A stretch of DNA of 33,217 bases from an uncultured Mollicutes bacterium (lineage in GTDB: Bacteria > Bacillota_I > Bacilli_A > Acholeplasmatales > Anaeroplasmataceae). A model generated the notes under the pieces. That model was not told the origin of the DNA, ran no database searches, and saw only the letters and a program-made list of their open reading frames with translations. The position numbers and the translations under genes are program-made. Positions 1 to 24,274 of the stretch are shown in pieces (within the stretch, counting starts at the first letter, position 1; every line of letters begins with the position of its first letter). Where the stretch lies: assembly GCA_947177025.1 (NCBI GenBank), contig CAMWSQ010000005.1, positions 1 through 33,217 on the forward strand, given 5' to 3'.

Positions 1-3000
1 GATATATATGTTCAAAGAACTTTAATTCGAGCCGATGAAAATAAAAATTCATTTGAGGAAATATCCTCTAACGAAGAAATTTTAAAAGAAAATGTTGTTA
101 CCTATATTTATGGAGAAGGTGGATGTGGAAAAACTGAATTTTTAAAGTATCTTATAAAAAATATAGATGATCGTATAGTTATAAAGTTAAAATGTTCAGA
201 AGTTGCCACTGCTCTTTTTGACTGCAACACTAAAAAGAAATCTGAGATATTTTTTGAACAATTATATAAGGAATTCAAAAGTATATGTGGAGAACCCGTA
301 TATTGTTCAGAAAAGGATTTTAAAACAATCTTAGTAAATCATCAATTTATTTTAGTGTTTGATGGAATAGATGAAATAGTAACAGAAAAAGCAACTAATG
401 TTTTTGTTGCGGGAATTAAAGAGTATTTTGAGCATTCTTATAGTCGCGGAGAAAAAACTCCTAAACTCATTTTCACAGGTCGACAGAAAACAGAAGCAAA
501 TAAACTAGATTTTTTTCTCAATGGAGAGCAATTAAAAATAGATTATTTGGAACTTCAGAAATTGACTGATGAAAAAATTAAACAGTTGATTGATAATATT
601 TTTTTGAAATTATCTGACTTGAATAAAGGAGAACAGTTTTATCTTGCTATTTCAGAGATAGATAAAGAATTGAAATCAAATCCCTTTTTACTTACTCAAC
701 TTGTTTTGGTATATAGTAATGAAGATATCATCCCTCAAAATGAATTGGATCTTTTTGATAAAGTTATAGAACTATTGTTGAAAAATGATTACAAAAATAA
801 GGATAAAGGATTATATGACGATTCTAGGTTCTCCGATATGACATCAGAACCTGAAACAATCAAGGTTTGGCTAGAAAAATTTGCTGTGCAACGATATATT
901 TCTCTTTCTGAAGGTAAAAACTTGAAAGAAAAAGATATCTTTGAAATAGTATTAAAGAAATCTAAAGAGTTTCCTGAATCTAGTTTGAAAGCGCGCGCTA
1001 GTTATTTGGTTGATTATTTAGAAAAACGTTCAATTTTAATTGAAAACAACTTTTATCATGGATTGCTTTTACAATATTTTACTGCAGTAGGGTATTATAA
1101 TATTATTTATAATGACGAATCAATCGAAAGAGAAAAATTACAAGAACTTTTTAAGCATTATAATGATTCTTCTTGGAAAGAAGTATTAGAAATGTTTTTT
1201 ATTAAGGCTGATAGTAAACTTGATGAACATACACTAAAAGATTTAATGAATATTATATTAGAGAATAAATCTATTATCGATTATACTCTTTTGTTTGACT
1301 CTTGTCAAAAACTAATTAACCAAAGAAAATCTGTTGAACTTGTTTTAACAAAAGATATTTTAATCAAATCTACAACAGGTGTATTTCCACCATATGGACC
1401 ATTATTTTATTATGTTCCACAATATGAATTATATAAAAGTTGTATATATGCGTTAAATGAAGAAGAATTAGAAGGTAATGCAAAAGCATTAGCTTTAGTA
1501 AGAGATGCTTGCTTTATTTATGGCTTATATAATAATATCAATGAAATAACAAATGAAATAAAAGGACAAGACTTGTTTAATGCTGCTAAAATAGACAAAA
1601 ACTTCAAAGGTGTAAGAGAAGCATTATGTAAAATATTCTATTTAGGAGATACAGATTATACTGGAGGAGATGACATATATCCAAGATGCTTTAATGTCCT
1701 TGAAACTAAACTTTTAAGAGATAGAGGTTATGGAATCCTTGGAACAATGGAAAATCCTTTTGAAGATGAATTAGGATTATTTGAGCATGAACAATATAAT
1801 GAAATAAATGGAGAATATGTAGGCTTTATTTCGTGTCCTAACGAGCCAAAAACAGAAACTAGATTGCGTAGAATTGGAGACGGTGCTAAAAAAATAACTT
1901 GCATTGCTTTTACATCAACTGAAATAAGGGAATTTGATATTTATAGATTTTATCGGAATTCTATTCGTCAAATTTATTTAAATGAATTATGTTATATTGG
2001 TAGTAGACATGAATTTAAAAAAAATTATCCATTAATTCGCGAGATTGTAGAATTTAAAAAGAGAAAATATTGCAATCCAAAGATAAAAATACTTGCAGGA
2101 GTAGAAAAAATAGAACTCTGTGAATTTTCCGATTGTGAAAATCTAGTTGAAGTAGATTTGACTCAGGCAACAGACTTAAAAAAAATAGAAGCTTTGGCAT
2201 TTTCAGACTGCAGGAATTTACCAAAAATAAAAATCTCAAAGGGCGTAACAGAAATATCAGATAGTGCATTTAGTGGATGTGATAATCTAATTGAGTTGGA
2301 TTTGACCAAGGCAGAAGATCTAACAGGAGTAGGAACTTTTTTGTTTTTTGGTTCAACAACAAATAGGCAAATATCTTTAACAAAAAATATGTATAATAAG
2401 TTTTTGCTATCTAGATTGGAGCATATCCATAATCAATTTTTGAAGATACACATTAAAGAGATTGATGACACAATAGTGAATATTACTCTAGAACAAAAGT
2501 CTAGAAATATACATGTCGAAAACTTCATTCGAGAAATGACAGGAGAGGAAATCAAACCTTTTGACGCTAAAATTGATAAAAAAAGAATGGCAAAAGAAGC
2601 TCAAGATATAGCAGGAGAGAAAGCCAAAGTAGATGCAGTCCAAATACTAGAAAGGGTAAAGAAAATAAAAGATAATGCATATTTTGGATATATAAACTTA
2701 GAAGAAGTAGATATGAGTGCGGCAACAGACTTAAAAGAAATAGGAACTTATGCTTTTGGATATTGCGAAAAGATACCAAAAATAAAAATCCCAAAAGAAG
2801 TAGAAAGAATAGGAGCAAACGCCTTTTCTTTCTGTAAAAACTTAGAAGAAGTAGATATGAGTGAAGCAAAAAAACTTATAATGATAGATAATGGTGCTTT
2901 TGGGTATTGCAAAAAACTGCCAAAAATAAAAATTTCACCAAACTTATTATGGATAGGAGATCATGCCTTTTCTTACTGTGAAAACTTAGAAAAAGTAGAT

Positions 3001-3444
3001 ATGAGTGAAGCAAAAAATCTTATGATTATAGACAATTGGTCTTTTTCTGGTTGCGAAAAGTTACCAAAAATAAAAATCCCAAAAGAAGTAGAAAGAATAG
3101 GAGCGAATGCCTTTTCTTCCTGTAAAAACTTAGAAGAAGTAGATATGAGTGAAGCAGAAAGTCTTATGATTATAGACAGTTGGGCGTTTGCGCATTGCCA
3201 AAAATTGGCAAAAATAAAAATTTCACCAAATTTAGAATGGATAGGAGAGTGTGCCTTTCTTTGGTGCAAAAGTTTAGTAGAAGTAGATTTGTCAGCTCCT
3301 AAAGATGTTTTTTTCATAAATGATAAAGCATTTTTTGGTTGTACTAATTTAAAGAAGATAAAGATTAGTAGAAACTTTGAAAATGATATAGAAAGAATAT
3401 TTGGAAATATTGATACATCTATTATAGAATGGTGGATAGATTAA
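1..3444 (+). CDS. NACHT NTPase with C-terminal BspA-type leucine-rich repeats (5' end outside window)
   Basis: The frame is open from base 1, so the true start and any N-terminal effector domain lie upstream; 1147 residues are visible. A Walker A motif GEGGCGKT lies at 112-135, a Walker B of the NACHT form (FILVFDGIDE) at 346-375, and a sensor-like KLIFTGRQ near 463-486. A NACHT-typical helical stretch (NPFLLTQLVLVYSNEDIIP) follows, about residues 109-127 counted from base 355. A helical linker region runs to about 2080. BspA-like leucine-rich repeats (pattern IG..AF..C.NL..VDMS) then fill 2080-3400, interrupted by a charged helical insert near 2400-2640. NACHT plus LRR is the architecture of animal NLR sensors, and bacterial NACHT proteins include anti-phage systems; that role here is inference. 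The GTG at 355 lies inside Walker B and is not a start. Confidence 0.9.
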   Translation, partial: DIYVQRTLIRADENKNSFEEISSNEEILKENVVTYIYGEGGCGKTEFLKYLIKNIDDRIVIKLKCSEVATALFDCNTKKKSEIFFEQLYKEFKSICGEPVYCSEKDFKTILVNHQFILVFDGIDEIVTEKATNVFVAGIKEYFEHSYSRGEKTPKLIFTGRQKTEANKLDFFLNGEQLKIDYLELQKLTDEKIKQLIDNIFLKLSDLNKGEQFYLAISEIDKELKSNPFLLTQLVLVYSNEDIIPQNELDLFDKVIELLLKNDYKNKDKGLYDDSRFSDMTSEPETIKVWLEKFAVQRYISLSEGKNLKEKDIFEIVLKKSKEFPESSLKARASYLVDYLEKRSILIENNFYHGLLLQYFTAVGYYNIIYNDESIEREKLQELFKHYNDSSWKEVLEMFFIKADSKLDEHTLKDLMNIILENKSIIDYTLLFDSCQKLINQRKSVELVLTKDILIKSTTGVFPPYGPLFYYVPQYELYKSCIYALNEEELEGNAKALALVRDACFIYGLYNNINEITNEIKGQDLFNAAKIDKNFKGVREALCKIFYLGDTDYTGGDDIYPRCFNVLETKLLRDRGYGILGTMENPFEDELGLFEHEQYNEINGEYVGFISCPNEPKTETRLRRIGDGAKKITCIAFTSTEIREFDIYRFYRNSIRQIYLNELCYIGSRHEFKKNYPLIREIVEFKKRKYCNPKIKILAGVEKIELCEFSDCENLVEVDLTQATDLKKIEALAFSDCRNLPKIKISKGVTEISDSAFSGCDNLIELDLTKAEDLTGVGTFLFFGSTTNRQISLTKNMYNKFLLSRLEHIHNQFLKIHIKEIDDTIVNITLEQKSRNIHVENFIREMTGEEIKPFDAKIDKKRMAKEAQDIAGEKAKVDAVQILERVKKIKDNAYFGYINLEEVDMSAATDLKEIGTYAFGYCEKIPKIKIPKEVERIGANAFSFCKNLEEVDMSEAKKLIMIDNGAFGYCKKLPKIKISPNLLWIGDHAFSYCENLEKVDMSEAKNLMIIDNWSFSGCEKLPKIKIPKEVERIGANAFSSCKNLEEVDMSEAESLMIIDSWAFAHCQKLAKIKISPNLEWIGECAFLWCKSLVEVDLSAPKDVFFINDKAFFGCTNLKKIKISRNFENDIERIFGNIDTSIIEWWID
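2776..3351 (+). repeat. Tandem 288-bp duplication inside the LRR region
   Basis: Two consecutive 288-bp (96-residue) units, 2776-3063 and 3064-3351, each hold two 48-residue double-LRR blocks. The first part of each unit is almost identical in DNA: the stretch encoding KIPKEVERIGANAFS followed by CKNLEEVDMSEA differs at only a few bases. The later part has diverged. The protein alternates a block with IPKEVERIGANAF and a block with ISPNL.WIG..AF. The near identity indicates a recent in-frame duplication. Confidence 0.85.
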
Positions 3445-6227: not shown

Positions 6228-7847
6228 ATGCTAGATATTTTAAAGGAATCCATTCTCTATGAATATTTTGTTTATAAATCTGTTTTAAACAAATTTGTAG
6301 AGGATGAACAAATCCTAGATTGTCTAATTAAAGTTTTCCAATTAGAGGAAAAGGATAAATCAGATTTACTAAAACTAATTCATAAAGACATAATTGAAGA
6401 AATCACATCAGAAGCAGACTATAAGCAATATAGAAGAATCAGTCAATATCAGAAAATGATGGAATCCTCTATGTTCTGCTCTGAGGAAGAGGAAACCATC
6501 ATTTCTATTAAAGGAGAAGCACTTTCTACCACAACAAAGAAAAATCTATTTGCTAAGCCAGAAATGACAAGCTCCCTCATTCAAAGAAACCTAATGCATT
6601 ATGCCAAGGTTGGTTGCCTAGTTGCGATGCGTATTCTTGGTGTTCTTCTCTGTGAAGGTATATTTGTAGAACAGAATAGAACAAAAGGAATTTCCTATTT
6701 AGAAAAGGCATCCTCTTGGGCAGATATAACTGCTACACTAGCTTTACTTAAGTACAAGAAGGATGCAAAAGAAACTCTTGCCTTTCTCAATTCCATTGCA
6801 AAGGATACACCATTTGAAGACTTTGCTATTGAGTTAAACTCTACTTATGGAATCAAAGAGATTTTCTATAAGGAAGAAATCTTTTTATTGAAGAAGGCAA
6901 TGGCGGCCGAAAAGATGAAGCTCGATGAATTTAATCCGATGCATGCTAGATTAGTCTATGCACCTGCAATCTCTTTAAAGGATAAAGAAAAAATCATTTT
7001 CTCAGAAAATAAGGAGCATATCTCTGATGCTTGTGACTTACCAATCAAATTTCATTATGAAGATTTAAAAATGAAATCAGAAGATGAGATTCAGCTTCTT
7101 TTATCTAGAGAAAAAGAATTTCATACAATTTCTATGGGATTAAAAAATAGTGATCTTAGACAACTGAATAGCTATCATCCGATTTGTTTGGTATCTGATT
7201 CAAATTATGTATTGGAAATGGCTATGAGAGGAATTCAGCAAATCTTTGAAGAGAATATAGAATGCATTGAAATGAATGATTTACGAGAAGCAGATTTTGA
7301 ACCAACAAAAAATCATGTATTTGTTCGAAATGTGAATGAAAGTAAAAATACAATTTATTTTCTGATCTTTAGAGGAGAACTTTCTGAAAGTGTGTTAGAA
7401 ATGGGAAAGAACTTTTTGAAAACCGAAAAGCGCAAGAAGTTCCACATCAACCATCCTACAATCACTTTAGATTTAAGAGGTGTTTTACCTATCTGTATTT
7501 GTGATAAGGAAAATGCTAAGAAGCTAAAGCCATTTGTTGAAACGATTAAGCTTGCGAATATAACAGATGAAGAAAAGCCTAGTATTATTGAGGATATGTT
7601 CCTTATGAAGAGTGACTTATATAAGGTCAGTGAAAAGAGGATAGATTCCTCTGTAGTGGAAAAGCTTTGTACTTACAGCTTAGAAACTGCTGAAAAGATA
7701 TTAGACCAAGCAATTCGTGATTTTAGAGTGGAATATGGTTCTGCTGAATTAACATTAGAGCGTATGCAGCCTTACTTCTTTGAAAAGAATCAAAACGGAA
7801 ATAAGAATGCATACGGTTTTGGAGGGATTATTCATGAAAATAACTAA
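6228..7847 (+). CDS. Sel1-repeat protein with degenerate (P-loop-less) AAA+-like domain; candidate ClpP partner
   Basis: This 539-residue protein has no confident named family. Residues about 120-178 resemble Sel1/TPR helical repeats (AMRILGVLLCEGIFVEQNRTKGISYLEKAS). Residues about 315-515 follow the order of a Lon/Clp-like AAA+ module: strand HPICLVSDSNYVLEMAMRGI where a P-loop should be, FVRNV at the Walker B position, LDLRGVLPICICDK at a sensor-1 position, then a lid-like helical region (ITDEEKPSIIEDMFL, then IDSSVVEKLC). GxxGxGKT is absent and no Walker B acidic pair is clear, so ATP hydrolysis is unlikely. The C-terminus contains AYGFGGIIH, close to the IGFG docking loop of ClpX. It lies three bases after clpP. 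AAA+ relationship and ClpP docking are inferences. Confidence 0.6.
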   Translation: MLDILKESILYEYFVYKSVLNKFVEDEQILDCLIKVFQLEEKDKSDLLKLIHKDIIEEITSEADYKQYRRISQYQKMMESSMFCSEEEETIISIKGEALSTTTKKNLFAKPEMTSSLIQRNLMHYAKVGCLVAMRILGVLLCEGIFVEQNRTKGISYLEKASSWADITATLALLKYKKDAKETLAFLNSIAKDTPFEDFAIELNSTYGIKEIFYKEEIFLLKKAMAAEKMKLDEFNPMHARLVYAPAISLKDKEKIIFSENKEHISDACDLPIKFHYEDLKMKSEDEIQLLLSREKEFHTISMGLKNSDLRQLNSYHPICLVSDSNYVLEMAMRGIQQIFEENIECIEMNDLREADFEPTKNHVFVRNVNESKNTIYFLIFRGELSESVLEMGKNFLKTEKRKKFHINHPTITLDLRGVLPICICDKENAKKLKPFVETIKLANITDEEKPSIIEDMFLMKSDLYKVSEKRIDSSVVEKLCTYSLETAEKILDQAIRDFRVEYGSAELTLERMQPYFFEKNQNGNKNAYGFGGIIHENN

Positions 7848-9537
7848 TCAAATTTTACAAGGCTATGAAAATACTACTCTTATCCATCACAATACGATGG
7901 ATAAGAGCTTCCCAAATTCATATTATTATGATGAATTAGGTGAACATGAAATCTCAGGCGTTTTAAAAGCAAGTCGTTATGTAAATGGAAGGTTATTACA
8001 AACCTATTCCAAACAAGAAAATCATGTAGGTGTTATTGCTGCTACACGTCTAGGAAAAACCTCTCAGTATGTAATTCCTACCATTCTTTCCTTTGCCAAA
8101 CAAAAGGTCAAAAAAAGAATGGTGATTTCTGACCCTAAAGGAGAATTATACAAGCTAACCTCTGAAGCCTTAAGACAAGAAGGATATACAGTAAAGCTGA
8201 TTAATTTTAGAGATTATCAGCATTCCGAATATTGGAATCCTCTAACACCAATTTTTAAAAAATATAAAAAAATCGATGAGATTGATAATGAAGTTGAAGT
8301 AGTTAATACAAAGGATGGACCACGAAATCGATTCAGAGGAAGAATATATGAAAGTCAGGAAGAGTTAGACTATGTCATAGAAATGTCTAAGGACTATGCC
8401 TTAAAGGATGTGGAAAATGATATTGATACTGTTGTTCTTGAGGCAATCTCTACAGAACGTACGGATGATCCCTATTGGGAGGATTCTGCAAGAGTACTAT
8501 TAAAGGGATTGCTTTGGGCAATGCTTGAGGATAGTTCTCCAGATACAAAGAGTGAAAGAATTACAGAAGAAACCTTTTCCTATAATACTGCCTTAACTAT
8601 TATGGATAATATGAGAGATGATAATGGTGCTAAATATAATGATGGTGGGTATTTCACTTCCAGACCAAAAGATTCTAAATCATTGACTACAGTAAAAAAC
8701 TGTATTATCGAAAATGGACATGTAACTAGAAAATGTATTGTCAGTACGTTTAATACAAAAATGAGTATTTATAAGGATAGTACAATTCGTTTGATTACAA
8801 GCTGTAATAGCTTTGATATACAGGAAGTAGTAGATGAAGAACATCCTGTAGCTTATTTTATAGCCTATCGTGATGAGATTAAAGGACACTATCAAATCAT
8901 TAGTTCTCTTGTCCAAAATATTTATATGAATTTGATAGAATATGCAAACAAGAAGGATAATGGCAAACTAGACGTCCCATTCTATTTCATATTAGATGAG
9001 TTTGGAAACTTCCCTAAAATTCCTAATTTTGAAACTGTTGTTTCAGCCTGTGCAGGAAGAAATATTTGGTTCATTTTAATTCTACAATCCTATGCACAGT
9101 TGGACCATGTTTATAAAAGAGATGTATCCGAAATCATTCGAGACAATTTAAACTTGCATGTTTTTATTGGTAGTAATAATCCAGAGACTTTAAAGAAGTT
9201 TAGTGAGGAATGCGGAGAGTTTACAAGAATATCTCCAATGAGCGCCTTAAATGGTTCTAAGGAGGATATTGAAGCCTATGAATTAGAAACAATACCTCTA
9301 ATGCCAAAAAGCAGACTTGCCAGCCTAAATGTAGGAGAATGTATTGTAACAGAAGCGAATAGTGGATATGTTTTATTGTCAAAATTGGAAAGATATTATT
9401 TATGTAAGGAATTCCAGAATCTAAAACTTTCTGATGACCATGCATATGCAGCAAAGATTAATCCCTTAGAAAGGAAATATGTGTATAAGTTCAAAACGGA
9501 TGATGAGGATGATGATACGGATCCATTTGATTTTTAG
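7834..9537 (+). CDS. VirD4/TraG-like coupling-protein ATPase without membrane anchor
   Basis: A 567-residue FtsK/HerA-superfamily motor of the TraG/VirD4 type. Walker A is AATRLGKT (residues 69-76, Lys75), preceded by the typical GVI strand. Walker B is FYFILDEFGNFPKIPNF, followed by the family glutamine motif (ILILQSYAQL) and NPETLKKFSEECGE. True VirD4 proteins carry N-terminal membrane helices; none is visible here, so it is probably soluble. The tail is very acidic (DDEDDDTDPFDF). The ATG at 7834 overlaps the previous gene by 14 bp and has GGAGGG 7 bases upstream. No relaxase, VirB4, VirB6 or peptidoglycan hydrolase lies nearby, so conjugation is not supported. A DNA- or protein-translocating motor in the ClpP operon is more likely (inference). 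Confidence 0.88.
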   Translation: MKITNQILQGYENTTLIHHNTMDKSFPNSYYYDELGEHEISGVLKASRYVNGRLLQTYSKQENHVGVIAATRLGKTSQYVIPTILSFAKQKVKKRMVISDPKGELYKLTSEALRQEGYTVKLINFRDYQHSEYWNPLTPIFKKYKKIDEIDNEVEVVNTKDGPRNRFRGRIYESQEELDYVIEMSKDYALKDVENDIDTVVLEAISTERTDDPYWEDSARVLLKGLLWAMLEDSSPDTKSERITEETFSYNTALTIMDNMRDDNGAKYNDGGYFTSRPKDSKSLTTVKNCIIENGHVTRKCIVSTFNTKMSIYKDSTIRLITSCNSFDIQEVVDEEHPVAYFIAYRDEIKGHYQIISSLVQNIYMNLIEYANKKDNGKLDVPFYFILDEFGNFPKIPNFETVVSACAGRNIWFILILQSYAQLDHVYKRDVSEIIRDNLNLHVFIGSNNPETLKKFSEECGEFTRISPMSALNGSKEDIEAYELETIPLMPKSRLASLNVGECIVTEANSGYVLLSKLERYYLCKEFQNLKLSDDHAYAAKINPLERKYVYKFKTDDEDDDTDPFDF

Positions 9538-16008: not shown

Positions 16009-16055
16009 ATTTAAGAAGTGTAAATAATTTTTACTATGTAAAGGATTTGAGTATT

Positions 16056-17657
16056 ATGAAACGTTTAATTGCACTATGTTCATCTTTATGTTTAGGACTT
16101 GTGATATTATTAACCAGCTGTGGGAGTAAAAATAGCTTGCCTAATATATCTGGATCTCTTAAGGTTGAAACTTTTAAAACGGTAATTGCTGTTACTGCAG
16201 ATTTTGTTGATAGTGAGAATCATGATTTGTACAACACAAATGTGAAATCTTATGTTTCAATCCACAGTACAGGAGAAGAGGTAAAGGAATTATCTAGAAA
16301 AGATGTTGCTATCACTACCCCTTCAACTCCTGAAACAAATTTAACTAGTTCAAAATTAGAATTTAATAATTTAACTGCTGATACAAAGTATTCTTTAAAG
16401 TTAGTCATTTCAGCAAATGGTTCTCAAAGAACTCTTGCAACAAAGGAAGTTACTACTTTAAATAATGGAGAATCAGAGGATGATCCAATTTTGATTGATA
16501 ATTTAGATAAGCTATTAGGAATGAATAAGACAAAGGATGCTTACTATAAGCTTACAGCAGATATTGATTGTGGTGGCACTCTTTCCTCTATTTTCAATTC
16601 AAGTAATATTTTCACAGGACATCTTGATGGAGATAATCATAAGATTTATAACTTTAAAATTGATAGCAATCAGTATGCTGGTTTATTTGGATATATGACT
16701 GGTGCTACTGTGAAAAATTTGATTTTAGATGAAGTTAGTTATGATGCAACTCGTTCTAATACATATTTAGGTGCGTTGGTTGGATATGCAAAGAATTGTG
16801 TTATTGAGAATGTTAAAATTCACAATTTAAAGCTTTCCCATTCAGGACAAACTACAACCTTTGGTTATGTTGGTGGATTTGTTGGAGTTGCTGAAAATTC
16901 AGAGATTTCAAATTGTACGATAGAGAATTTAGAAATTATCAATCCATACGCAAGATTAAAAATGTATGTTGGTGGATTTGTTGGAGAAAACAAGAATTCC
17001 AAGATAACAAATTGTAATGTTACAGGGTCTATCACATCTACAATTTCATATACTTCCAATAGCGATGGTTGTCTATATGTTGGTGGTTTCGTTGGTGTGA
17101 ATGATTCCAATGCGGGTATTCATTCCTGCTATGCTAAAGTAGACATTACAGTAAAAGAACCAGAATCTACAGTTACAGCAGAGGGTAAAAAAACATTCCA
17201 TCTTTATGTTGGTGGATTTAATGGTGGAAATAGAAAGGATGCGTCTAGATTAGAAAATTGTGCTAGCGTAGGAGACATCAATGTTTCAGCTGTTTATGCA
17301 GCTTATGCTTACGTTGGTGGTTTTGCTGGAATTATAGATAATCTAAATGTAGCAATTTATAAATATTGTGTTTATATTCCAAAGGACAAAGGCGTGAGTG
17401 CAAAATTTGCACCTACTCCAACTAGTGAAGAGGGCTCAACTTCTGAAGAAGAAAAGAAAGTAACGCAAGAAGCTTATATTTCTCTTGCTATTGGTAAAAT
17501 TGGTACTAAGTCTTCAAATCAAATTCATACAATTGTGTATAGAGATGCTTTGACAATTGAAAATGAGCATGATAAATTGGTTAAGACTCCATACACTGTG
17601 AGTCAAGATTTAACAGGATTTGCTGACGTAATTCGTGGTTTAATTTCTGAAGCATAA
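16056..17657 (+). CDS. Surface lipoprotein with GLUG-type beta-helix repeats
   Basis: A 533-residue secreted lipoprotein. The signal peptide MKRLIALCSSLCLGLVILLT ends in an LTSC lipobox with Cys22 as the lipid-modified residue. A fibronectin-like beta region of about 120 residues follows. Then come GLUG-type repeats built on YVGGFVG followed by a short turn and I.NC.V..L.I, seen in at least six copies between about 16680 and 17350. These fold as a right-handed beta-helix in adhesin-like surface proteins. The C-terminal stretch holds a Thr/Ser/Glu-rich linker and no anchor. ATG at 16056 is preferred over TTG at 16047 because AAGGA lies at a workable distance. It is probably a monocistronic adhesin or glycan-binding protein (inference). 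Confidence 0.85.
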   Translation: MKRLIALCSSLCLGLVILLTSCGSKNSLPNISGSLKVETFKTVIAVTADFVDSENHDLYNTNVKSYVSIHSTGEEVKELSRKDVAITTPSTPETNLTSSKLEFNNLTADTKYSLKLVISANGSQRTLATKEVTTLNNGESEDDPILIDNLDKLLGMNKTKDAYYKLTADIDCGGTLSSIFNSSNIFTGHLDGDNHKIYNFKIDSNQYAGLFGYMTGATVKNLILDEVSYDATRSNTYLGALVGYAKNCVIENVKIHNLKLSHSGQTTTFGYVGGFVGVAENSEISNCTIENLEIINPYARLKMYVGGFVGENKNSKITNCNVTGSITSTISYTSNSDGCLYVGGFVGVNDSNAGIHSCYAKVDITVKEPESTVTAEGKKTFHLYVGGFNGGNRKDASRLENCASVGDINVSAVYAAYAYVGGFAGIIDNLNVAIYKYCVYIPKDKGVSAKFAPTPTSEEGSTSEEEKKVTQEAYISLAIGKIGTKSSNQIHTIVYRDALTIENEHDKLVKTPYTVSQDLTGFADVIRGLISEA

Positions 17658-17659
17658 TT

Positions 17660-17678
17660 GGAGCATGTGCTCCTTTTT
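17660..17678 (+). terminator. Terminator after the GLUG lipoprotein
   Basis: The palindrome GGAGCATGTGCTCC (17660-17673) is followed by TTTTT. The stem is short, so some readthrough into cysS is possible; no separate cysS promoter or T-box leader is visible in the 45 bases that follow. Confidence 0.7.
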
Positions 17679-17702
17679 ATGCTAGTTATAGGAGATGAAA
17701 AA

Positions 17703-19034
17703 ATGGGACTAAAGATATATAATTCTCTTTCTAATCAAATGGAAGAATTTATACCTGTTCAACCTGGAAAAGTAAATATGTATGTCTGTGGTCCTACAGT
17801 ATATAATCACAGTCATATTGGAAATTTCCGTCCTGTCGTATTTTTTGATATGATGTATAAATATCTAAAGTATTTAGGATATGAAGTGAAATATGCTTCC
17901 AATATTACAGATGTGGATGATAAGATTATCAATCAAGCTCTTTCTGAAAATAAAACGGAAAAAGAAATTGCCACATATTATGAAAAATGCTATTTTGAAG
18001 CCGCAGAAAAGCTTGGAAGTAGTAAACCAGATTTTATTCCTCATGCTACAGATTATATTGATGAAATGATTTCCTTCATTCATCAGTTAATTGAAGAAGG
18101 TTATGCATATGAAGTAGATGGAGATGTTTTCTTCCGTGTGAAGAAGATTCAAAATTATGGATGCTTATCCAATCAAGTCAGTGATGATTTAGAAATGGGG
18201 GCTAGAATCTCTGTGAATGAAAAGAAGGAAAATCCACTTGATTTCTCTTTATGGAAAAAAACAGAGGTTGGTATTAAATGGGACTCTCCTTTTGGAGCAG
18301 GTCGTCCAGGATGGCATACAGAATGTGTTGTAATGAACCATAAACTATTTGGTGGACAAATTGATATTCATGGTGGAGGAATGGATTTAAAGTTTCCACA
18401 TCACGAAAATGAAATTGCTCAGAATGAAGCAATGTATCATAATTCTCTTTCAAAATATTGGATGCATGTAGGGAGAGTTGATTTTGAAGGGCAAAAAATG
18501 TCAAAATCCTTACATAATGTAATTTATATTAAAGATTTAGAGAATAATAAAGCTGTAATGGTGGTAAGAATGATGCTTGTCTTTACACCTTACCGCAATA
18601 ATTTCTCATATTCTCAGGAGGTCTTTGAACAATATGAAAAGATCTTTGAAAAATGGCAACGCGCTTACAAGCAAGGATTGTATGAACTACAGGTTGCAAA
18701 AAAACTAGAAAATGAAGTATTGGATTCAGATATTTTGAAACAATTTGAAGAGTATATGAATCAAGATTTTAATGTTCAAAATGTTATGACATTGATTGAA
18801 CAAATGATTAAAGATTTGAATGTTTCTATAAGGATGAAAAATATAGAAGCTACTACTAAAATATGGCATACTCTAAATAAAATATTATCTATCTTAGGGA
18901 TTAACCTATTTGTTCAGCCTATGAAGGATAATGAACTAGAGGTGTATATCAATTGGAGCATCGCAAGACAAAATAAGGATTTTGAAGCAGCAGATACCTA
19001 TCGGCAACAGCTTGCAGATTGGGGAATCCTATAA
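17703..19034 (+). CDS. cysS: Cysteinyl-tRNA synthetase
   Basis: This class I synthetase charges tRNA-Cys in the cytoplasm. It has the HIGH-type motif HIGN (38-41), KMSKS (265-269) and zinc ligands Cys29, Cys208, His233 and Glu237 at the positions known in E. coli CysS. The length of 443 residues is slightly short: the chain ends at LADWGIL and lacks the usual final segment (DT..GT.W). The ATG at 17703 has AGGAG 8 bases upstream; the longer frame has none. Its stop overlaps the mrnC start, as in many Firmicutes where the pair is conserved. Confidence 0.97.
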   Translation: MGLKIYNSLSNQMEEFIPVQPGKVNMYVCGPTVYNHSHIGNFRPVVFFDMMYKYLKYLGYEVKYASNITDVDDKIINQALSENKTEKEIATYYEKCYFEAAEKLGSSKPDFIPHATDYIDEMISFIHQLIEEGYAYEVDGDVFFRVKKIQNYGCLSNQVSDDLEMGARISVNEKKENPLDFSLWKKTEVGIKWDSPFGAGRPGWHTECVVMNHKLFGGQIDIHGGGMDLKFPHHENEIAQNEAMYHNSLSKYWMHVGRVDFEGQKMSKSLHNVIYIKDLENNKAVMVVRMMLVFTPYRNNFSYSQEVFEQYEKIFEKWQRAYKQGLYELQVAKKLENEVLDSDILKQFEEYMNQDFNVQNVMTLIEQMIKDLNVSIRMKNIEATTKIWHTLNKILSILGINLFVQPMKDNELEVYINWSIARQNKDFEAADTYRQQLADWGIL

Positions 19035-19411
19035 TGGATGCAAATCTATACAATGGATTATGTCTTGCTTACATTGGGGATGCAATTTATGAGTTATATG
19101 TAAGAAAGCATATATTAGCATCAGGCATTACCAAGGTAAATGAGTTGCACAAGAAAGTGATTTGTTATACGAATGCTTTAGCACAAGCAAATGCAATTCA
19201 TTATTATTTAGAAAATGAACTCTTAAGTGAAGAGGAACTTTCCATCTTTAAGCGAGGAAGAAATTCTCATGTTCACACCAAAAGAAAGAATGTGGATTTA
19301 TCTAACTACTTAGATGCAACAGGTTTTGAATCACTGATGGGGTATTTATATTTGAATGGAGAAATAAAACGATTAGAGGAACTGATTGATATTTCTTTAA
19401 AATTGATTTAG
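19034..19411 (+). CDS. mrnC: Mini-ribonuclease III (23S rRNA maturation)
   Basis: A 125-residue RNase III catalytic domain without a dsRNA-binding domain. LAYIGDAIYELYVR carries the signature catalytic acidic residues, and the helical region FKRGRNSHVHTKRKN followed by YLDATGFESLMGYLYL is typical. In Bacillus subtilis Mini-III trims 23S rRNA precursor ends. The ATG shares its A with the cysS stop (TAATG), so it is translated by coupling. Confidence 0.95.
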   Translation: MDANLYNGLCLAYIGDAIYELYVRKHILASGITKVNELHKKVICYTNALAQANAIHYYLENELLSEEELSIFKRGRNSHVHTKRKNVDLSNYLDATGFESLMGYLYLNGEIKRLEELIDISLKLI

Positions 19412-19424
19412 GAGGTAATAACCT

Positions 19425-22400
19425 ATGGCAACTTTTGATGATAAAAGCATATTCAGCAGAAGAAAAAATGAAGAAGAGCCAAAAGAAAAAACTGAGGTTA
19501 TAGAAGAAACTGTAGAAGAGCAAGATACAGAAATGTCTGAGGAAATGGTTTCTGAAGAAGAAAATCTTGCATTATCTATAGAAGAAGATGCTTCAGGTGA
19601 AGATAAGGTTATCGGTGAAGAGCTTATTGAAAGTGAAACTGTTCGTAAGCAAAGAGAAAAGAAAGAGAAAAAAGAAAAGAAGCTTGCAGATAAACAATAT
19701 GCTTTGATGGTAAAGAATCATCGTAAAGCAATGAAAAAGAATCCAGAAAATATTAAGAGATATGAAACGGATGTTGAAAAAGGTCTATCTGCTGAAATTG
19801 TTGAAAAGCGTGTCTTAGATAATTTAGTAAATGTAACTAAAAAAGGTTCAACAAAATCTAGAAAAAGAATTGTATTCTCTAATATCTTTACGTTCTTTAA
19901 CATTTTAACACTTTCTATTGCTATTTGGTTAATGACGGTTCAAGCTTGGACAGATTTAGTCTTCTTAGCTATTGTAACAGCAAATACAGTTATTGGAATT
20001 TATCAAGAGATTAAAGCTAAAAATACGATTGATAAATTATCCTTACTTTCTGCTCCTAGTGCAGTAGTTATTCGAGGTGGAATCAAGCAAGAAATTGGAG
20101 TAGGAAACGTCGTTTTAGATGATTTGTTGGTTTTAGAATCTGGAAATCAGATTTGTGCTGATAGTGTTGTTGTAAGTGGAAGTATAGAAGTTAATGAGGC
20201 ACTATTAACAGGTGAAAGTGATACGATTATCAAAAAGCCAGGAGATTTATTATTCTCTGGATCATTTGTGGTATCAGGAAACTGTCGTGCAAGAGTAGAT
20301 AAAGTCGGAAAAGATAATTATATTGAAAAATTATCCGCTCAAGCTAAATTATATCGTAAACCAAATTCAGATTTGTTAAAATCATTGAAGTGGATTATTT
20401 GGGGTATGACTCCAATGATTATTGTATCTGGAATTACATTATTCCTATTACAATGGTTTAACCCTAATATACCTTATATTACAGCTGTAAGAAAAACAGC
20501 AGGTGCTATGATTGGTATGATTCCATCAGGGTTGTGGTTGTTGACATCTATTGCATTATTTGTTGGTGTCATTAAGCTATCTCAAAAGAATGTATTGGTT
20601 CAAGAACTATATTGTATTGAGATGCTTGCCCGTATCAATGTGCTTTGTTTGGATAAAACAGGAACAATTACAGATGGTACAATGAATGTAAAGAATGTTA
20701 TTGATTACAATAGCTTCTTTGGATTGACAACAAGTAATATTGTTTCTGCTATGTTAAATGCTTTGAATGAAAGCAATTTAACAGCTGTAGCCTTACAAAA
20801 GGAATTCGGATTAAATAAAAGATTAAAATTTACAGATACTATTCCTTTTAGTTCTCAAAGAAAATTTAATGCAGTTACCTTTGATAAAATGGGAACCTTT
20901 GCTTTAGGTGCTCCTGATATTGTATTAAAGGATCGATTTGACCAAGTGAAAAAAGAAGTTCAAAGAAATGCAGGAATGGGATATCGTGTCTTGAGCTTAG
21001 TTCACTTTAATGGCTCAATTGAAAATCAAAAATTACCAAATACAGGTGCTGAAATTGTTTCTTTAATTGTCATTGAGGATAATATTCGTCCAGATGCAAT
21101 TAAAACAATTAACTATTTTAAAGAAAGTGGAGTATCTGTACGTGTTATTTCCGGTGATGATCCTCTTACAGTTTCAAAAATTTCAGAACGTGCTGGAATT
21201 GAAAATGCTAGTGAATATATTTCTTTAGATGGATTATCTGATGCAGAGGTTGAACGTGCTGCATTAAAGTATACAGTATTTGGACGTGTTTCACCTTCTC
21301 AAAAGAAGTTATTAGTTACTACACTTAAAAATGATGGTAAAAAGGTAGCGATGACAGGTGATGGTGTTAACGATATTTTAGCTTTAAGAGAAGCAGATTG
21401 TTCCATCGCAATTGCTTCTGGTAGTGAAGCTGCTCGTAATGTAAGTCACTTAGTATTATTGGATTCTAACTTTGACTCTATGCCAAAGGTTGTTTCTGAG
21501 GGTAGAAGAGTAATTAACAATGTTACGAATGTTGCTTCATTATTCTTAACAAAAACAATCTTCTCCTTATTGCTAGCTATTCAGGCGATGATTAATGGTG
21601 GTGCTTACCCTATTTCTACAAACCAATTAATTATGATTGATTTATTTGCAATTGGTATTCCATCCTTCTTCTTAGCATTAGAGTCAAATAATAAAGAGGT
21701 TGATGGAAACTTCCTGGGAAATATCCTCAAAGGAGCCCTGCCGGGAGCATTGACGATTATGATTATTTCTCTGCTAATCTTTGGATTGTCTGGCAGCTTA
21801 GAATTAGATACTATCTCTATTCAAACAATTATTTGTATTGCAGCAACGCATACCTGCTTAATGGTTTTATTTAAGGTATGTAAGCCATTCAATACTTTGC
21901 GTCGAACACTATGTGGATGCTGTTATGGTGCTTTCTTGATTATTACCTTCTTGCTTCCACAATTCCTAGAATTTAGACCAGTGGTAAATTTCTCTCAATA
22001 TTATAGTTCTTCTATAAAAGATGAGGTTATGACTTTTGTTCCAGAAATACGTATCAGTTCGGATTATGATTATGTATTTAATGGCAAAGTTTTATGGGAT
22101 ATTAAGAAAAATCCGGGTGAAACGAACATCAGTATTGCTTGTGTATATTCTGAGACGGATGAAAAATACTATTATACATTTAATGGTACAGAGGTAAAGG
22201 AAGAGGTGGTTATTCCAGAGCTTTCTTTCTCTTCTTCAGGAAAGGCCGTTTTAGGTGGATGTCAGGTATTCTATTATAAAAAGACTGGTCAAGCAGGAGA
22301 TTCTTTAGACAAGGTATATATTCAATATGAAGAGGGCTTTGAGAAAAAGTTTAGATTAGATGATCATGCCCGTCTTGTTTACATAGAAGATAGTCTAGAA

Positions 22401-23276
22401 TATCCTGTTTATAGAACGCTTACTGAAACAGACGTTTACTATGGCTTTTATAACAAATATGGTGGAAATCGTACACAAGAGGTTCAGGTTTGTATTATGC
22501 CTACGATTAGGATTCGAAATGACCAATTGACTGTTATTCCAAGAAAATCTAATATTAATACAGCTGAAGAGGGAACAAAAACCTATAGAACAAATCTTTC
22601 TTCACGTGATAATATTGATTTATTAATTGATACAACTACTTTAGAATTATTAGTAAATGGCAAAAAATTAGCGCCTACCTTAGAGGATGGAACAGTTTCT
22701 ACAAATACATATAAGGTTGAAATGCCTACTCTATCCTTTGATAGTAATGGTTATGTTATTGTAAATGGTATAGAAACCAATGTTTCTATGTCTGATTTTG
22801 GATATCCAAGTGCAGATTCACTTCTTGATGAATCTGATTTGAATGTTCGGATTATTCCATATGAGGCTTCTTATTACTTGTCTACAAGCCCATCTTCTTT
22901 AAACTTAAATGGTAAAAATACGAATGTTCGTTTATCTAATTCTAGTATTTGTCCAGATGTTACAACTACGGAGAGTGGATATTACGTATTAGATGGCTAT
23001 TATACAGATTTTAAACAAGTATCCAATACGCCAACGCCAAAAGTAGATAGTGATTATAATTTAGTTTTAGGCGGAGTTGTTACAGATTATCGTATTTCTC
23101 CAAATACAATCTCAACAACAACGGGTGGTTTAGTAAAGGAATTGACAGTTTATGCGAAGATATTCTTGTTGATGTTGTGTTTACTTTCTATTCCATTGAT
23201 GAGATTGTTACAAGCAATTGTTCCATGGATTAAACACCAAGTTGCATTTATTCAAAAGCTATTATCTAAATTCTAA
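19425..23276 (+). CDS. P-type cation ATPase with a large extracytoplasmic insertion
   Basis: A 1283-residue membrane pump, far longer than usual (about 780-900). Residues 1-145 are a charged cytoplasmic extension. Core motifs are TGES (262-265), the phosphorylated Asp410 in DKTGT, and MTGDGVND (643-650). Membrane segments lie near 152-193 (two), 323-342, 360-382, 704-751 (two), 768-789, 798-817, 832-848 and 1243-1262. The M4 site reads IPSGLWLL where calcium-type pumps have PEGL, so ion choice is uncertain; overall it is closest to the CtpE-like group. Residues about 850-1240, between the last two helices, form a beta-rich extracytoplasmic domain with repeated units such as PTLSFDSNGYVIVNGIETNV. 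A strong AGGAGG precedes the ATG. Confidence 0.9.
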   Translation: MATFDDKSIFSRRKNEEEPKEKTEVIEETVEEQDTEMSEEMVSEEENLALSIEEDASGEDKVIGEELIESETVRKQREKKEKKEKKLADKQYALMVKNHRKAMKKNPENIKRYETDVEKGLSAEIVEKRVLDNLVNVTKKGSTKSRKRIVFSNIFTFFNILTLSIAIWLMTVQAWTDLVFLAIVTANTVIGIYQEIKAKNTIDKLSLLSAPSAVVIRGGIKQEIGVGNVVLDDLLVLESGNQICADSVVVSGSIEVNEALLTGESDTIIKKPGDLLFSGSFVVSGNCRARVDKVGKDNYIEKLSAQAKLYRKPNSDLLKSLKWIIWGMTPMIIVSGITLFLLQWFNPNIPYITAVRKTAGAMIGMIPSGLWLLTSIALFVGVIKLSQKNVLVQELYCIEMLARINVLCLDKTGTITDGTMNVKNVIDYNSFFGLTTSNIVSAMLNALNESNLTAVALQKEFGLNKRLKFTDTIPFSSQRKFNAVTFDKMGTFALGAPDIVLKDRFDQVKKEVQRNAGMGYRVLSLVHFNGSIENQKLPNTGAEIVSLIVIEDNIRPDAIKTINYFKESGVSVRVISGDDPLTVSKISERAGIENASEYISLDGLSDAEVERAALKYTVFGRVSPSQKKLLVTTLKNDGKKVAMTGDGVNDILALREADCSIAIASGSEAARNVSHLVLLDSNFDSMPKVVSEGRRVINNVTNVASLFLTKTIFSLLLAIQAMINGGAYPISTNQLIMIDLFAIGIPSFFLALESNNKEVDGNFLGNILKGALPGALTIMIISLLIFGLSGSLELDTISIQTIICIAATHTCLMVLFKVCKPFNTLRRTLCGCCYGAFLIITFLLPQFLEFRPVVNFSQYYSSSIKDEVMTFVPEIRISSDYDYVFNGKVLWDIKKNPGETNISIACVYSETDEKYYYTFNGTEVKEEVVIPELSFSSSGKAVLGGCQVFYYKKTGQAGDSLDKVYIQYEEGFEKKFRLDDHARLVYIEDSLEYPVYRTLTETDVYYGFYNKYGGNRTQEVQVCIMPTIRIRNDQLTVIPRKSNINTAEEGTKTYRTNLSSRDNIDLLIDTTTLELLVNGKKLAPTLEDGTVSTNTYKVEMPTLSFDSNGYVIVNGIETNVSMSDFGYPSADSLLDESDLNVRIIPYEASYYLSTSPSSLNLNGKNTNVRLSNSSICPDVTTTESGYYVLDGYYTDFKQVSNTPTPKVDSDYNLVLGGVVTDYRISPNTISTTTGGLVKELTVYAKIFLLMLCLLSIPLMRLLQAIVPWIKHQVAFIQKLLSKF

Positions 23277-23485: not shown

Positions 23486-23520
23486 CCTCTATGCATTATT
23501 TTGCATAGAGGTATTTTATT
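23486..23520 (+). terminator. Terminator of the cysS-mrnC-ATPase operon
   Basis: A perfect 10-bp stem CCTCTATGCA / TGCATAGAGG (23486-23495 with 23502-23511) is followed by a T-rich tail. Confidence 0.85.
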
Positions 23521-23533
23521 TTGTCTGTTTTTT

Positions 23534-23542
23534 TGGTATAAT
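23534..23542 (+). promoter_or_regulatory. Extended -10 promoter of rlmB
   Basis: TGGTATAAT (TGnTATAAT) ends at 23542 right after the terminator. No good -35 is present, as expected for an extended -10 promoter. Confidence 0.5.
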
Positions 23543-23569
23543 ACATCCATAAAGTGTAATGGTGATTGT

Positions 23570-24274
23570 ATGATAAAAATATTTGGAAAGAATTGCATAC
23601 GAGAGGCAATTCGGGCAAATCATGGTTTGAAAAAGGTCTTTTTAACAGAAGAGGCTGCTAAAAAGGATTCCCCCTTTTTAGAATTGCTAAAAGATAAAAA
23701 AATACCTTATTCAATAGAATCTAAAAAAGGAATGGATTCTTTATTTGGCAATGGGCATCAAGGCTATGGTGCATATCATGAGGATTATAAAATTTATGAT
23801 GAATCTATTTTAGAGAGCATTACAGCGTCTCCAAAAAGAATTTTAATTTTAGATGGTATAATGGATCCACATAATTTAGGAGCAATTCTAAGGAGTGTGG
23901 ATGCTTTTGGATATGATGCAGTAATCTTACCGAAAAATAGAAGCTGTTCTATTACAGAAACCGTGGCTCATATATCTACGGGTGCGATTGAACATGTAAA
24001 AATTGCATATGTGAATAGTTTATCTGTTTTTATTGAACGATTAAAAAAGGCAGGGTATTGGATTTGTGGAACAGATGCAAAAGGAACGACAGCTGTTTCA
24101 GATGTAGATGCAAGTTTAGATTTGGCTGTAATTATTGGCTCTGAAGGATTTGGAATGAGTAGAACTCTTTTAAAACAGGTAGATTATCTACTATCTATTC
24201 CTATGGTTGGGCATGTAAATAGCTTAAATGCTTCAGTGAGCGCAGGAATTGTTTTATTTGCTTTAAGAAAATAA
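23570..24274 (+). CDS. rlmB: 23S rRNA 2'-O-methyltransferase of the SpoU/TrmH family (RlmB-like)
   Basis: A 234-residue SPOUT methyltransferase that would methylate a ribose 2'-OH in 23S rRNA using S-adenosylmethionine. The three knotted-fold motifs are clear: DPHNLGAILRS (about 99-109), IIGSEGFGM (188-196) and IPMVGHVNSLNASVSAGIVL (210-229). A short N-terminal substrate-binding domain (MIKIFGKNCIREAI) is present. The start at 23570 gives the family's standard N-terminus, with a weak GGTGAT upstream. The position after mrnC and before a sigma factor matches the Bacillus rlmB locus. Confidence 0.93.
   Translation: MIKIFGKNCIREAIRANHGLKKVFLTEEAAKKDSPFLELLKDKKIPYSIESKKGMDSLFGNGHQGYGAYHEDYKIYDESILESITASPKRILILDGIMDPHNLGAILRSVDAFGYDAVILPKNRSCSITETVAHISTGAIEHVKIAYVNSLSVFIERLKKAGYWICGTDAKGTTAVSDVDASLDLAVIIGSEGFGMSRTLLKQVDYLLSIPMVGHVNSLNASVSAGIVLFALRK

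Follow-up and report, generated by a model that had tools for sequence, protein, structure and literature searches.

We found that a P-type ATPase gene of an uncultured Mollicutes bacterium carries, in frame, a long insert between its ninth and tenth transmembrane helices (M9 and M10); the insert is folded in silico, is extracytoplasmic by topology and is inherited almost family-wide under purifying selection. We read the product as a working CtpE-like cation pump whose M9–M10 tandem beta-hairpin repeat domain is predicted to be a surface-exposed interaction domain, a reading in which we place about even confidence. P-type ATPases are regarded as pumps with little outside beyond separate subunits. 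If the reading is true, pumps of this ATPase class can take on surface roles in cis, on a single chain with a 285–464-residue ectodomain.

Pump core and insert

The window, i.e. the whole stretch of DNA analysed, comprises 33,217 nucleotides and contains the following pump features:

19425..23276, + strand: P-type ATPase gene with extracytoplasmic insert, 1283 aa (ORF, Pfam, motifs, AlphaFold2)
20652..20666, + strand: phosphorylation motif DKTGT, aa 410–414
21357..21374, + strand: hinge motif GDGVND, aa 645–650
21987..23123, + strand: extracytoplasmic insert, aa 855–1233, about ten three-strand beta units (alignment, hydropathy, AlphaFold2)
22950..23096, + strand: last two insert units, aa 1176–1224, adjoining M10 and among the best conserved family-wide (unit conservation)
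23148..23270, + strand: M10 and C-terminal helix, aa 1242–1282 (hydropathy, AlphaFold2, SERCA2b alignment)

The preliminary description had stated that the insert-bearing pump keeps normal catalytic motifs, and DKTGT, TGE (at aa 262) and GDGVND are indeed present. Together with the E1-E2 and HAD domains (Pfam E1-E2_ATPase at 133.6 bits, Hydrolase at 74.9 bits, each passing the cut-off) they place the protein in the P-type ATPase superfamily. An AlphaFold2 model of aa 95–1283 (mean pLDDT 80.0, pTM 0.59) displays ten helices and aligns to SERCA2b with Z 33.4 (758 aligned residues, rmsd 6.0, model residues 18–1179), as expected of the ten-helix P-type fold. Because the alignment runs through residue 1179, we regard the last helix as genuine M10 and the insert as extracytoplasmic. 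Hydropathy yields M1–M9, then a 393-residue polar stretch without a strong hydrophobic segment, then M10; by alignment the M9–M10 loop measures 379 aa in the window pump versus 0–14 in insertless relatives. The earlier placement of the insert between M9 and M10 was thus correct, its size is revised from about 390 to about 379 residues, and the insert proves to occur family-wide. Topology and the SERCA2b alignment put the domain outside; a cytoplasmic placement was not borne out.

Modelled alone, the insert is predicted with confidence to be all-beta with about ten three-strand units (pLDDT 87.7, pTM 0.81), and long strands lie straight after M9 and right before M10; its placement relative to the pump is unsure in the full model (pTM 0.59). 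A repeat HMM built from 31 units of a different bacterial family scored the window insert at 24.6 bits, compared to 14.4 for the top of 1,400 shuffled sequences (50 for each of 28 inserts): the insert repeats exceed chance, and the domain is beta-rich and repetitive as first described. Foldseek gave no match at E<=0.001 against PDB and BFVD, the top rows (beta-propellers, fascin, OspA, kelch) having TM-scores near 0.1 that we do not read as similarity. VIA-align returned DDB1 as a weak best hit (Z 3.5, rmsd 3.4, 59 aligned), and a profile search against PDB sequences reached a best E of 0.011; these fold searches exclude no family. No match of the window insert to PF16378 (DUF4988; gathering cut-off 30 bits) was seen at E<=1, and neither it nor seven more Anaeroplasmataceae inserts had a Pfam match above cut-off.

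Distribution and origin of the insert

The insert occurs in 49 of 55 Anaeroplasmataceae genomes and in six of the seven genera, every time within the pump frame, and in 0 of the remaining 105 genomes of the order. Its length ranges from 285 to 464 residues across the family, and the window genome holds one copy only. The insert-bearing hosts are gut and rumen bacteria, relatives of mycoplasmas. That the fusion was produced by wrong assembly has a practically negligible probability: the window assembly is fragmented (111 contigs, 75% complete), but the same insert is found throughout those 49 genomes, and the assembly of a type strain, Anaeroplasma bactoclasticum ATCC 27112 (L090), is one of them. 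The preliminary description would have been contradicted if a pump family already described had commonly carried this insert; the insert is indeed widespread in Anaeroplasmataceae, but the literature searched contained no account of it.

In the pump tree, made without three loci near-identical to other rows (L006, L009, L011), all insert-bearing family pumps fall into one starred clade and the insertless G016 lies outside, a branching order that supports a single insert gain within Anaeroplasmataceae. Inserts in the same loop were also found in two further families, f19 (263–274 residues) and f9 (77 residues); these pumps sit on separate branches of the tree, and the repeat units are related across the lineages. 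Since one of four tree changes is false (L032, cut by a contig end), three gains make up the shortest account. On that account the M9–M10 loop would have gained inserts at least three times, the alternative being an ancestral insert with many losses. A class-wide search outside the family gave 10 weak matches, nine of which were examined (G385 was left out). Among the best rows listed in other match tables, no further long pumps were present.

The neighbouring genes are as follows:

16047-17657: GLUG-repeat lipoprotein, neighbour upstream of cysS
17658..19034, + strand: cysS, conserved neighbour
19019..19411, + strand: probable mini-ribonuclease III gene, which we take to be mrnC, conserved neighbour
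23501..24274, + strand: rlmB, conserved downstream neighbour

Of the 37 named loci, 29 carry the GLUG-repeat lipoprotein upstream of cysS; six of the eight misses are insert-bearing loci starting near a contig end and two are insertless. We rejected it as a dedicated partner of the insert, as it is also present in the insertless G016 and G042 (L161, L170).

Divergence and selection

In 45 same-genus pairs the ratio of insert to core dN was 3.2–10.4 in 44 and 0.4 in one. Insert dN/dS was 0.13–0.53 where dS could be estimated, rough values as dS is close to saturation. The insert thus appears constrained yet fast, with a dN 3–10 times that of the pump. High insert divergence is also a possible sign of weak constraint. 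Compared with eight named loci of the genus, the window shows identities of 50–62% for the insert, 45–67% for the neighbouring lipoprotein, 82–92% for the core and 71–81% for cysS: by these ranges the insert diverges like the lipoprotein, unlike the pump core or cysS. Across the family the last units are conserved at 0.39–0.44 versus 0.20 for u8, with u1 at 0.37 and u3 at 0.39. The gradient is modest, u1 and u3 almost equalling u10, and it is weaker within the genus alone. In one species pair a 1.48-kb tract across M8, insert and M10 is near-identical, the remainder of 9 kb being 81–97% identical. The tract looks as if swapped between species, in one pair of 84 and between two metagenome bins of one study, where an assembly chimera is possible.

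The length range, the rapid divergence and the at least three insertions on the shortest account would fit neutral or nearly neutral accretion, i.e. a loop tolerating hairpin repeats that persist without use. We consider this quite improbable: the insert stays in frame family-wide, whether or not a genome has wall genes, its dN/dS lies well below 1, unit pattern and fold are shared, and reduced genomes are expected to shed a useless 1.1 kb.

Possible roles of the domain

Units related to those of the insert occur in secreted proteins of the class, namely the lipoproteins L103, L107, L108 and L109 and the amidase-like proteins L104 and L110. The resemblance to secreted surface proteins noted earlier is therefore real, and the idea of a fusion with a surface-protein module stands. 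Below the 30-bit cut-off, PF16378 scored 28.9 and 21.0 bits in the f19 inserts L141 and L142 and 29.1 bits in lipoprotein L108. In PHROG searches L108 matches tail proteins (best 2e-27), a hint of phage origin; the f19 inserts match families of unknown function more weakly than L108, and the window insert matches none.

In the mechanism we propose, the M9–M10 loop would have received tandem beta-hairpin repeats of the kind found in secreted surface proteins, leaving the catalytic cycle of the pump presumably intact. The insert would then present an environment-facing interaction surface on a conserved membrane protein, which might serve for adhesion, for shielding or for binding a ligand or partner; membrane-proximal units would fix the domain to the pump, and distal units would diverge and swap between species. 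Similar repeats, apparently grafted into this loop in two other lineages, hint that a pump may double as a surface protein. A wider version is possible, although we doubt it: pumps of these Bacilli would have been made dual-use surface proteins independently at least three times, with a hairpin-repeat ectodomain that is swapped between species of a genus as a cassette, breakpoints in the flanking helices, in the manner of surface antigens and phage receptors, and a fold absent from solved structures.

The domain could instead be a built-in accessory subunit, acting in the manner of CDC50 or of the Na,K-ATPase beta-subunit ectodomain: it would cap the outer face of the pump in cis and assist with folding or stability, with gating or with ion affinity. 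Beta subunits are required for folding in two P-type classes, according to the cited part of PMC10654040. The insert enters exactly beside M10, with end strands predicted to abut M9 and M10 in the model; the M10-near units are among the most conserved, and the single-copy insert is kept in nearly all family pumps. We nevertheless rate such a subunit as rather unlikely, as insertless relatives (G016 at 61% identity, and all others of the order) do without a cap, amino-acid divergence is 3–10 times that of the pump, unlike a locked partner, and the domain has no significant structural match and an unsure placement on the pump (pTM 0.59).

Binding to the cell wall, suggested in the preliminary description, did not hold up. 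In surveys of wall genes covering 36 and 23 of the 55 family genomes, the window's own included, the 23 yielded five insert-bearing genomes without a transpeptidase (PF00905) match and 14 with one. The insert persists regardless of penicillin-binding proteins, which makes wall binding unlikely. Anchoring of the pump to peptidoglycan or another envelope polymer, to which the transpeptidase genes and MurA-like gene of the window's genus would lend themselves, is very improbable: three of the five PF00905-free genomes keeping the insert are 94–99% complete (G013, G017, G019), and the sole insertless genus (G016) possesses transpeptidases. Peptidoglycan genes are present in only part of the Anaeroplasmataceae according to the cited part of a published survey (PMC10868615).

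The interaction-surface reading can be tested with a natural insertless relative (G016) and the cultured type strain A. bactoclasticum ATCC 27112.

Ion site and pump class

Three positions bear on the transported ion:

20523..20534, + strand: M4 motif PSGL, aa 367–370, with Ser368 in place of the PEGL Glu (alignment; invariant in 30 family pumps)
21639..21641, + strand: M6 Asp739; Asn there in the genome's own Ca-type pump L002 (alignment)
21651..21653, + strand: M6 Ile743; Ca2+-efflux pumps have Asp there (alignment; PMC10654040, cited part)

PSGL had been said to leave the ion unclear. The M4 Ser is real, and M6 Asp739 may supply the carboxylate: among 64 aligned pumps, Asp or Glu occupies this position in 58 of 59 without the M4 Glu and in 0 of 5 with it. 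As an M6 acid accompanies the missing M4 Glu, the ion-site carboxylate may have been relocated from M4 to M6, not lost. Such a relocation offers a route into the open question of cargo and direction in P6-like pumps.

PEGL in M4 is a trait of CtpE and other P6 pumps (PMC10654040, cited part); it is absent from the window pump (PSGL) and, in the wider clade, from 59 of the 64 pumps aligned. The M6 Ile of P6 pumps is present as Ile743 and in 51 of the 64, with Asp in L002. We use the label ‘CtpE-like’ and not P6 ATPase because PEGL is missing. In the pump tree (one Ca-type outgroup, CtpE absent, long branches meeting) the window pump groups with actinobacterial PEGL pumps. Against the P3A proton pump model TIGR01647 it scored 244.4 bits, below the curated cut-off of 615.5.

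Comparison with known systems

Among the closest counterparts are insertless pumps of the order (e.g. L034, L100, L131), which share the cysS-mrnC-pump-rlmB order, PSGL, the M6 Asp and 56–61% core identity; they differ in an M9–M10 loop of 11–12 residues without the beta domain. With CtpE and the P6 pumps (family 23; Ca2+ uptake in Mycobacterium smegmatis) the window pump has in common ten helices, the catalytic motifs and M6 Ile743, and it is 37.4% and 43.5% identical to PEGL-type HAD-IC pumps of Pseudonocardia and Monoglobus. It differs from CtpE, which itself lies outside the alignment, in PSGL instead of PEGL, M6 Asp739 and the added 379-residue domain; the M. smegmatis CtpE is 791 aa long (PMC5615198, cited part). 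PF16378 (DUF4988) and collagen-flanked surface lipoproteins are a further counterpart: the f19 inserts L141 and L142 and lipoprotein L108 match PF16378 below threshold, and the Anaeroplasmataceae inserts scanned had no Pfam match above cut-off. The f19 (g141, g107) and f9 (g71) pumps are like the window pump in wider clade, loop and related units, but they sit on separate branches, carry about eight regular units (263–274 residues) or 77 residues, and have M4 PAGL and M6 Glu. The Na,K-ATPase beta subunit and CDC50 likewise equip a P-type pump with an extracytoplasmic domain, a likeness by analogy only (PMC10654040, cited part); these are separate chains, whereas the window pump is one chain with a repeat-type domain and no detected fold similarity to them.

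The pump and its extracytoplasmic insert

The preliminary description had proposed a P-type ATPase with normal catalytic motifs and a large extracytoplasmic insertion before its last helix. The relevant features of the window are:
19425-23276, + strand, P-type ATPase ORF, 1283 residues encoded
20526-20528, Ser368 of M4
21639-21641, Asp739 of M6
The ORF product contains E1-E2_ATPase and Hydrolase domains and the full set of P-type catalytic motifs. The best curated model is that of a proton-pump family, with a score far below its cut-off (244.4 vs 615.5 bits), and the nearest solved relative by sequence is a Listeria Ca2+-ATPase (E 1.9e-49). The hydropathy profile shows the usual helices through M9, then 393 mostly polar residues and M10. 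An AlphaFold2 model of residues 95-1283 (30 family rows in the alignment; mean pLDDT 80.0, pTM 0.59) could be superposed on SERCA2b (758 aligned residues, Z 33.4, rmsd 6.0) as far as model residue 1179. Because the alignment extends this far, the model indicates that M10 is genuine and therefore that the insert (residues 855-1233) must emerge from the membrane and return to it at the outer face; hydropathy and the SERCA2b alignment thus agree with the proposed insertion and place it outside, not in the cytoplasm.

The insert alone (residues 850-1240, 41 rows) was predicted with a pLDDT of 87.7 and a pTM of 0.81 as about ten units, each made of a short strand and then a hairpin, with an 11-residue strand directly after M9 and a 9-residue strand directly before M10. 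A structural search with this prediction gave no significant match, and the insert had no match at E ≤ 1 in Pfam, NCBIfam or PHROGs. A repeat HMM was built from 31 units of pump inserts from another family (f19, see below), using an alignment without any window sequence. It scored the window insert at 24.6 bits, compared to 14.4 bits for the best of 1,400 shuffles, in line with the repeated units first suggested. Among 28 Anaeroplasmataceae inserts 19 exceeded the best shuffle and nine did not, the two lowest scoring below 2 bits. Pfam DUF4988 (cut-off 30 bits) is nearly reached by f19 units (28.9 and 21.0 bits) and by a lipoprotein, L108 (29.1 bits).

Distribution of the insert

The window corresponds to contig 5 of a genome of 1.34 Mb (75% complete), in which the insert occurs once. 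Scanning named genomes with residues 795-1283 identified 37 loci: 35 match nearly the entire query including the insert, and two (L100, L101) match only around M8-M9. The 35 are mostly labelled Anaeroplasma, Anaeroplasmataceae or Acholeplasmatales, some Mollicutes, Erysipelotrichaceae, Bacillales, Clostridium or bacterium; L090 comes from Anaeroplasma bactoclasticum ATCC 27112. A profile built from 28 inserts (A1) matches 49 of 55 family genomes in six of seven genera. The six misses comprise G016, whose full pump of 896 residues has an 11-residue M9-M10 loop; G024, whose pump (L032) is broken off by the contig end; G002, with only the first 314 pump residues; G015, where the pump starts 6 bases from the contig end; and G014 and G030, where only more distant pumps were found. 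Across the order all matches (49/160 genomes) lie in Anaeroplasmataceae, with 0/105 in the other genomes. The insert is thus common among Anaeroplasmataceae pumps, and the literature searched gave no earlier description of it. Class-wide, A1 matches 27 of 395 genomes, 19 in the family and eight, weakly, outside.

The gene order cysS-mrnC-pump-rlmB (mrnC, probable mini-ribonuclease III) is identical with and without the insert. Other genes of the window are:
355-3444, large BspA-type leucine-rich-repeat protein (1029 aa)
7780-9537, VirD4-like conjugation coupling protein, near the CD1115 family cut-off (242.5 vs 250 bits)
16047-17657, GLUG-repeat lipoprotein, lying upstream of cysS at most family loci; the insertless genomes G016 and G042 have it too

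Nine of ten places with weak class-wide matches were read. Two are pumps of family f19, genus g141 (G350, G391); the remainder comprise secreted lipoproteins, amidase-like proteins and a long protein, L106, where no such unit was seen. The likeness to repeats of secreted surface proteins is borne out by lipoproteins L103, L107, L108 and L109, each of which has a single YW-INGxxT unit; collagen-like stretches and a List_Bact repeat are further features of L107 and L108. The secreted amidase-like proteins L104 and L110 have one similar unit each, L110 with an Amidase_2 match.

When 395 class genomes were searched with the pump core, 229 had a match at 1e-130; among the matches listed, four pumps outside the family exceed 1,100 residues (G350, G391, G320, G262), with M9-M10 loops of 263-274 residues built of about eight regular units. 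In a third family, f9, the pump L147 (G214) has a loop of intermediate size (77 residues, about two units), and all remaining aligned pumps outside the family have 0-14 residues. Repeat-bearing loops are thus found in f19 and f9 pumps. In a phylum-wide sample of 392 genomes, of which 166 gave a match at 1e-100, no further pump above 1,000 residues was found outside the family among the matches listed.

Evolution of the insert

In a tree of 62 pump cores, with insert columns omitted, one starred clade (100/99) contains all insert-bearing family pumps plus the contig-cut L032; insertless G016 lies outside. The inserts of f19 and of f9 fall on branches of their own. Since four changes are required, one of them the contig-cut L032, the shortest account is one gain each in Anaeroplasmataceae, f19 and f9.

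The ratio of insert dN to core dN is 3.2-10.4 in 44 of 45 pairs of the window's genus and 0.4 in one. Where dS is finite, dN/dS is 0.13-0.53 for the insert and 0.014-0.105 for the core, values of which only the insert-core contrast is safe as dS is often near saturation in these pairs. In the exceptional pair, L009-L010, third-position identity is 75.6% in the core vs 98.7% in the insert, an insert excess seen in this pair alone among 84 within-genus pairs. The contigs concerned (L067, L071), from two species, were compared over 9 kb and show 81-97% identity in 150-base steps outside a near-identical 1.48-kb tract (L067 5941-7424) that spans M8, the insert and M10 and contains identical runs of 497, 347, 253 and 322 bases with one diverged patch between. 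Homologous recombination of an insert cassette between the two species would be the natural reading of this pattern; an assembly (bin) chimera is possible, and both bins come from one study.

The ion site

PSGL in place of PEGL in M4, as described initially, is invariant in 30/30 family pumps, including the insertless L034. Among 64 aligned CtpE-like pumps an acid (Asp/Glu) occupies the M6 position of Asp739 in 58 of 59 without the M4 Glu (the exception being L157) vs 0 of 5 with it (Fisher p 7.9e-7, kinship ignored). Ile743 stands where Ca2+ pumps have their M6 Asp, a replacement described for P6 pumps in PMC10654040. From these alignments we infer that an early event in this Bacilli clade moved one carboxylate from M4 to M6 and that this preceded the insert; PSGL would accordingly not be tied to the insert.

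Cell wall and possible function

Anaeroplasmataceae are known for members without a wall. The transpeptidase family PF00905 matches 16 of 23 family genomes examined, with none in G011, G013, G014, G015, G017, G019 and G020, and MurA-like genes are present in some family genomes and missing from others. Since the insert occurs in 14 genomes with PF00905 and also in five without, the domain appears to be independent of a wall, which speaks against the suggested wall binding. The window's genus (G000-G010) has transpeptidase genes; all its genomes but G002 also have a MurA-like gene, one that scores under the family cut-off (332 vs 392.7 bits in the window's genome). According to PMC10868615, 40-60% of Anaeroplasmataceae genomes have peptidoglycan genes.

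By computation, the pump is intact and bears on its outer side a beta domain that persists as a feature, evolves fast and may be exchangeable. Functionally, the nearest analogue is the beta subunit that other P-type pumps have as a separate chain, but the difference in rate between insert and core, together with the existence of insertless relatives, speaks against a need for the domain in pumping. The pump would still pump, and the outer domain may serve as a surface interaction module.
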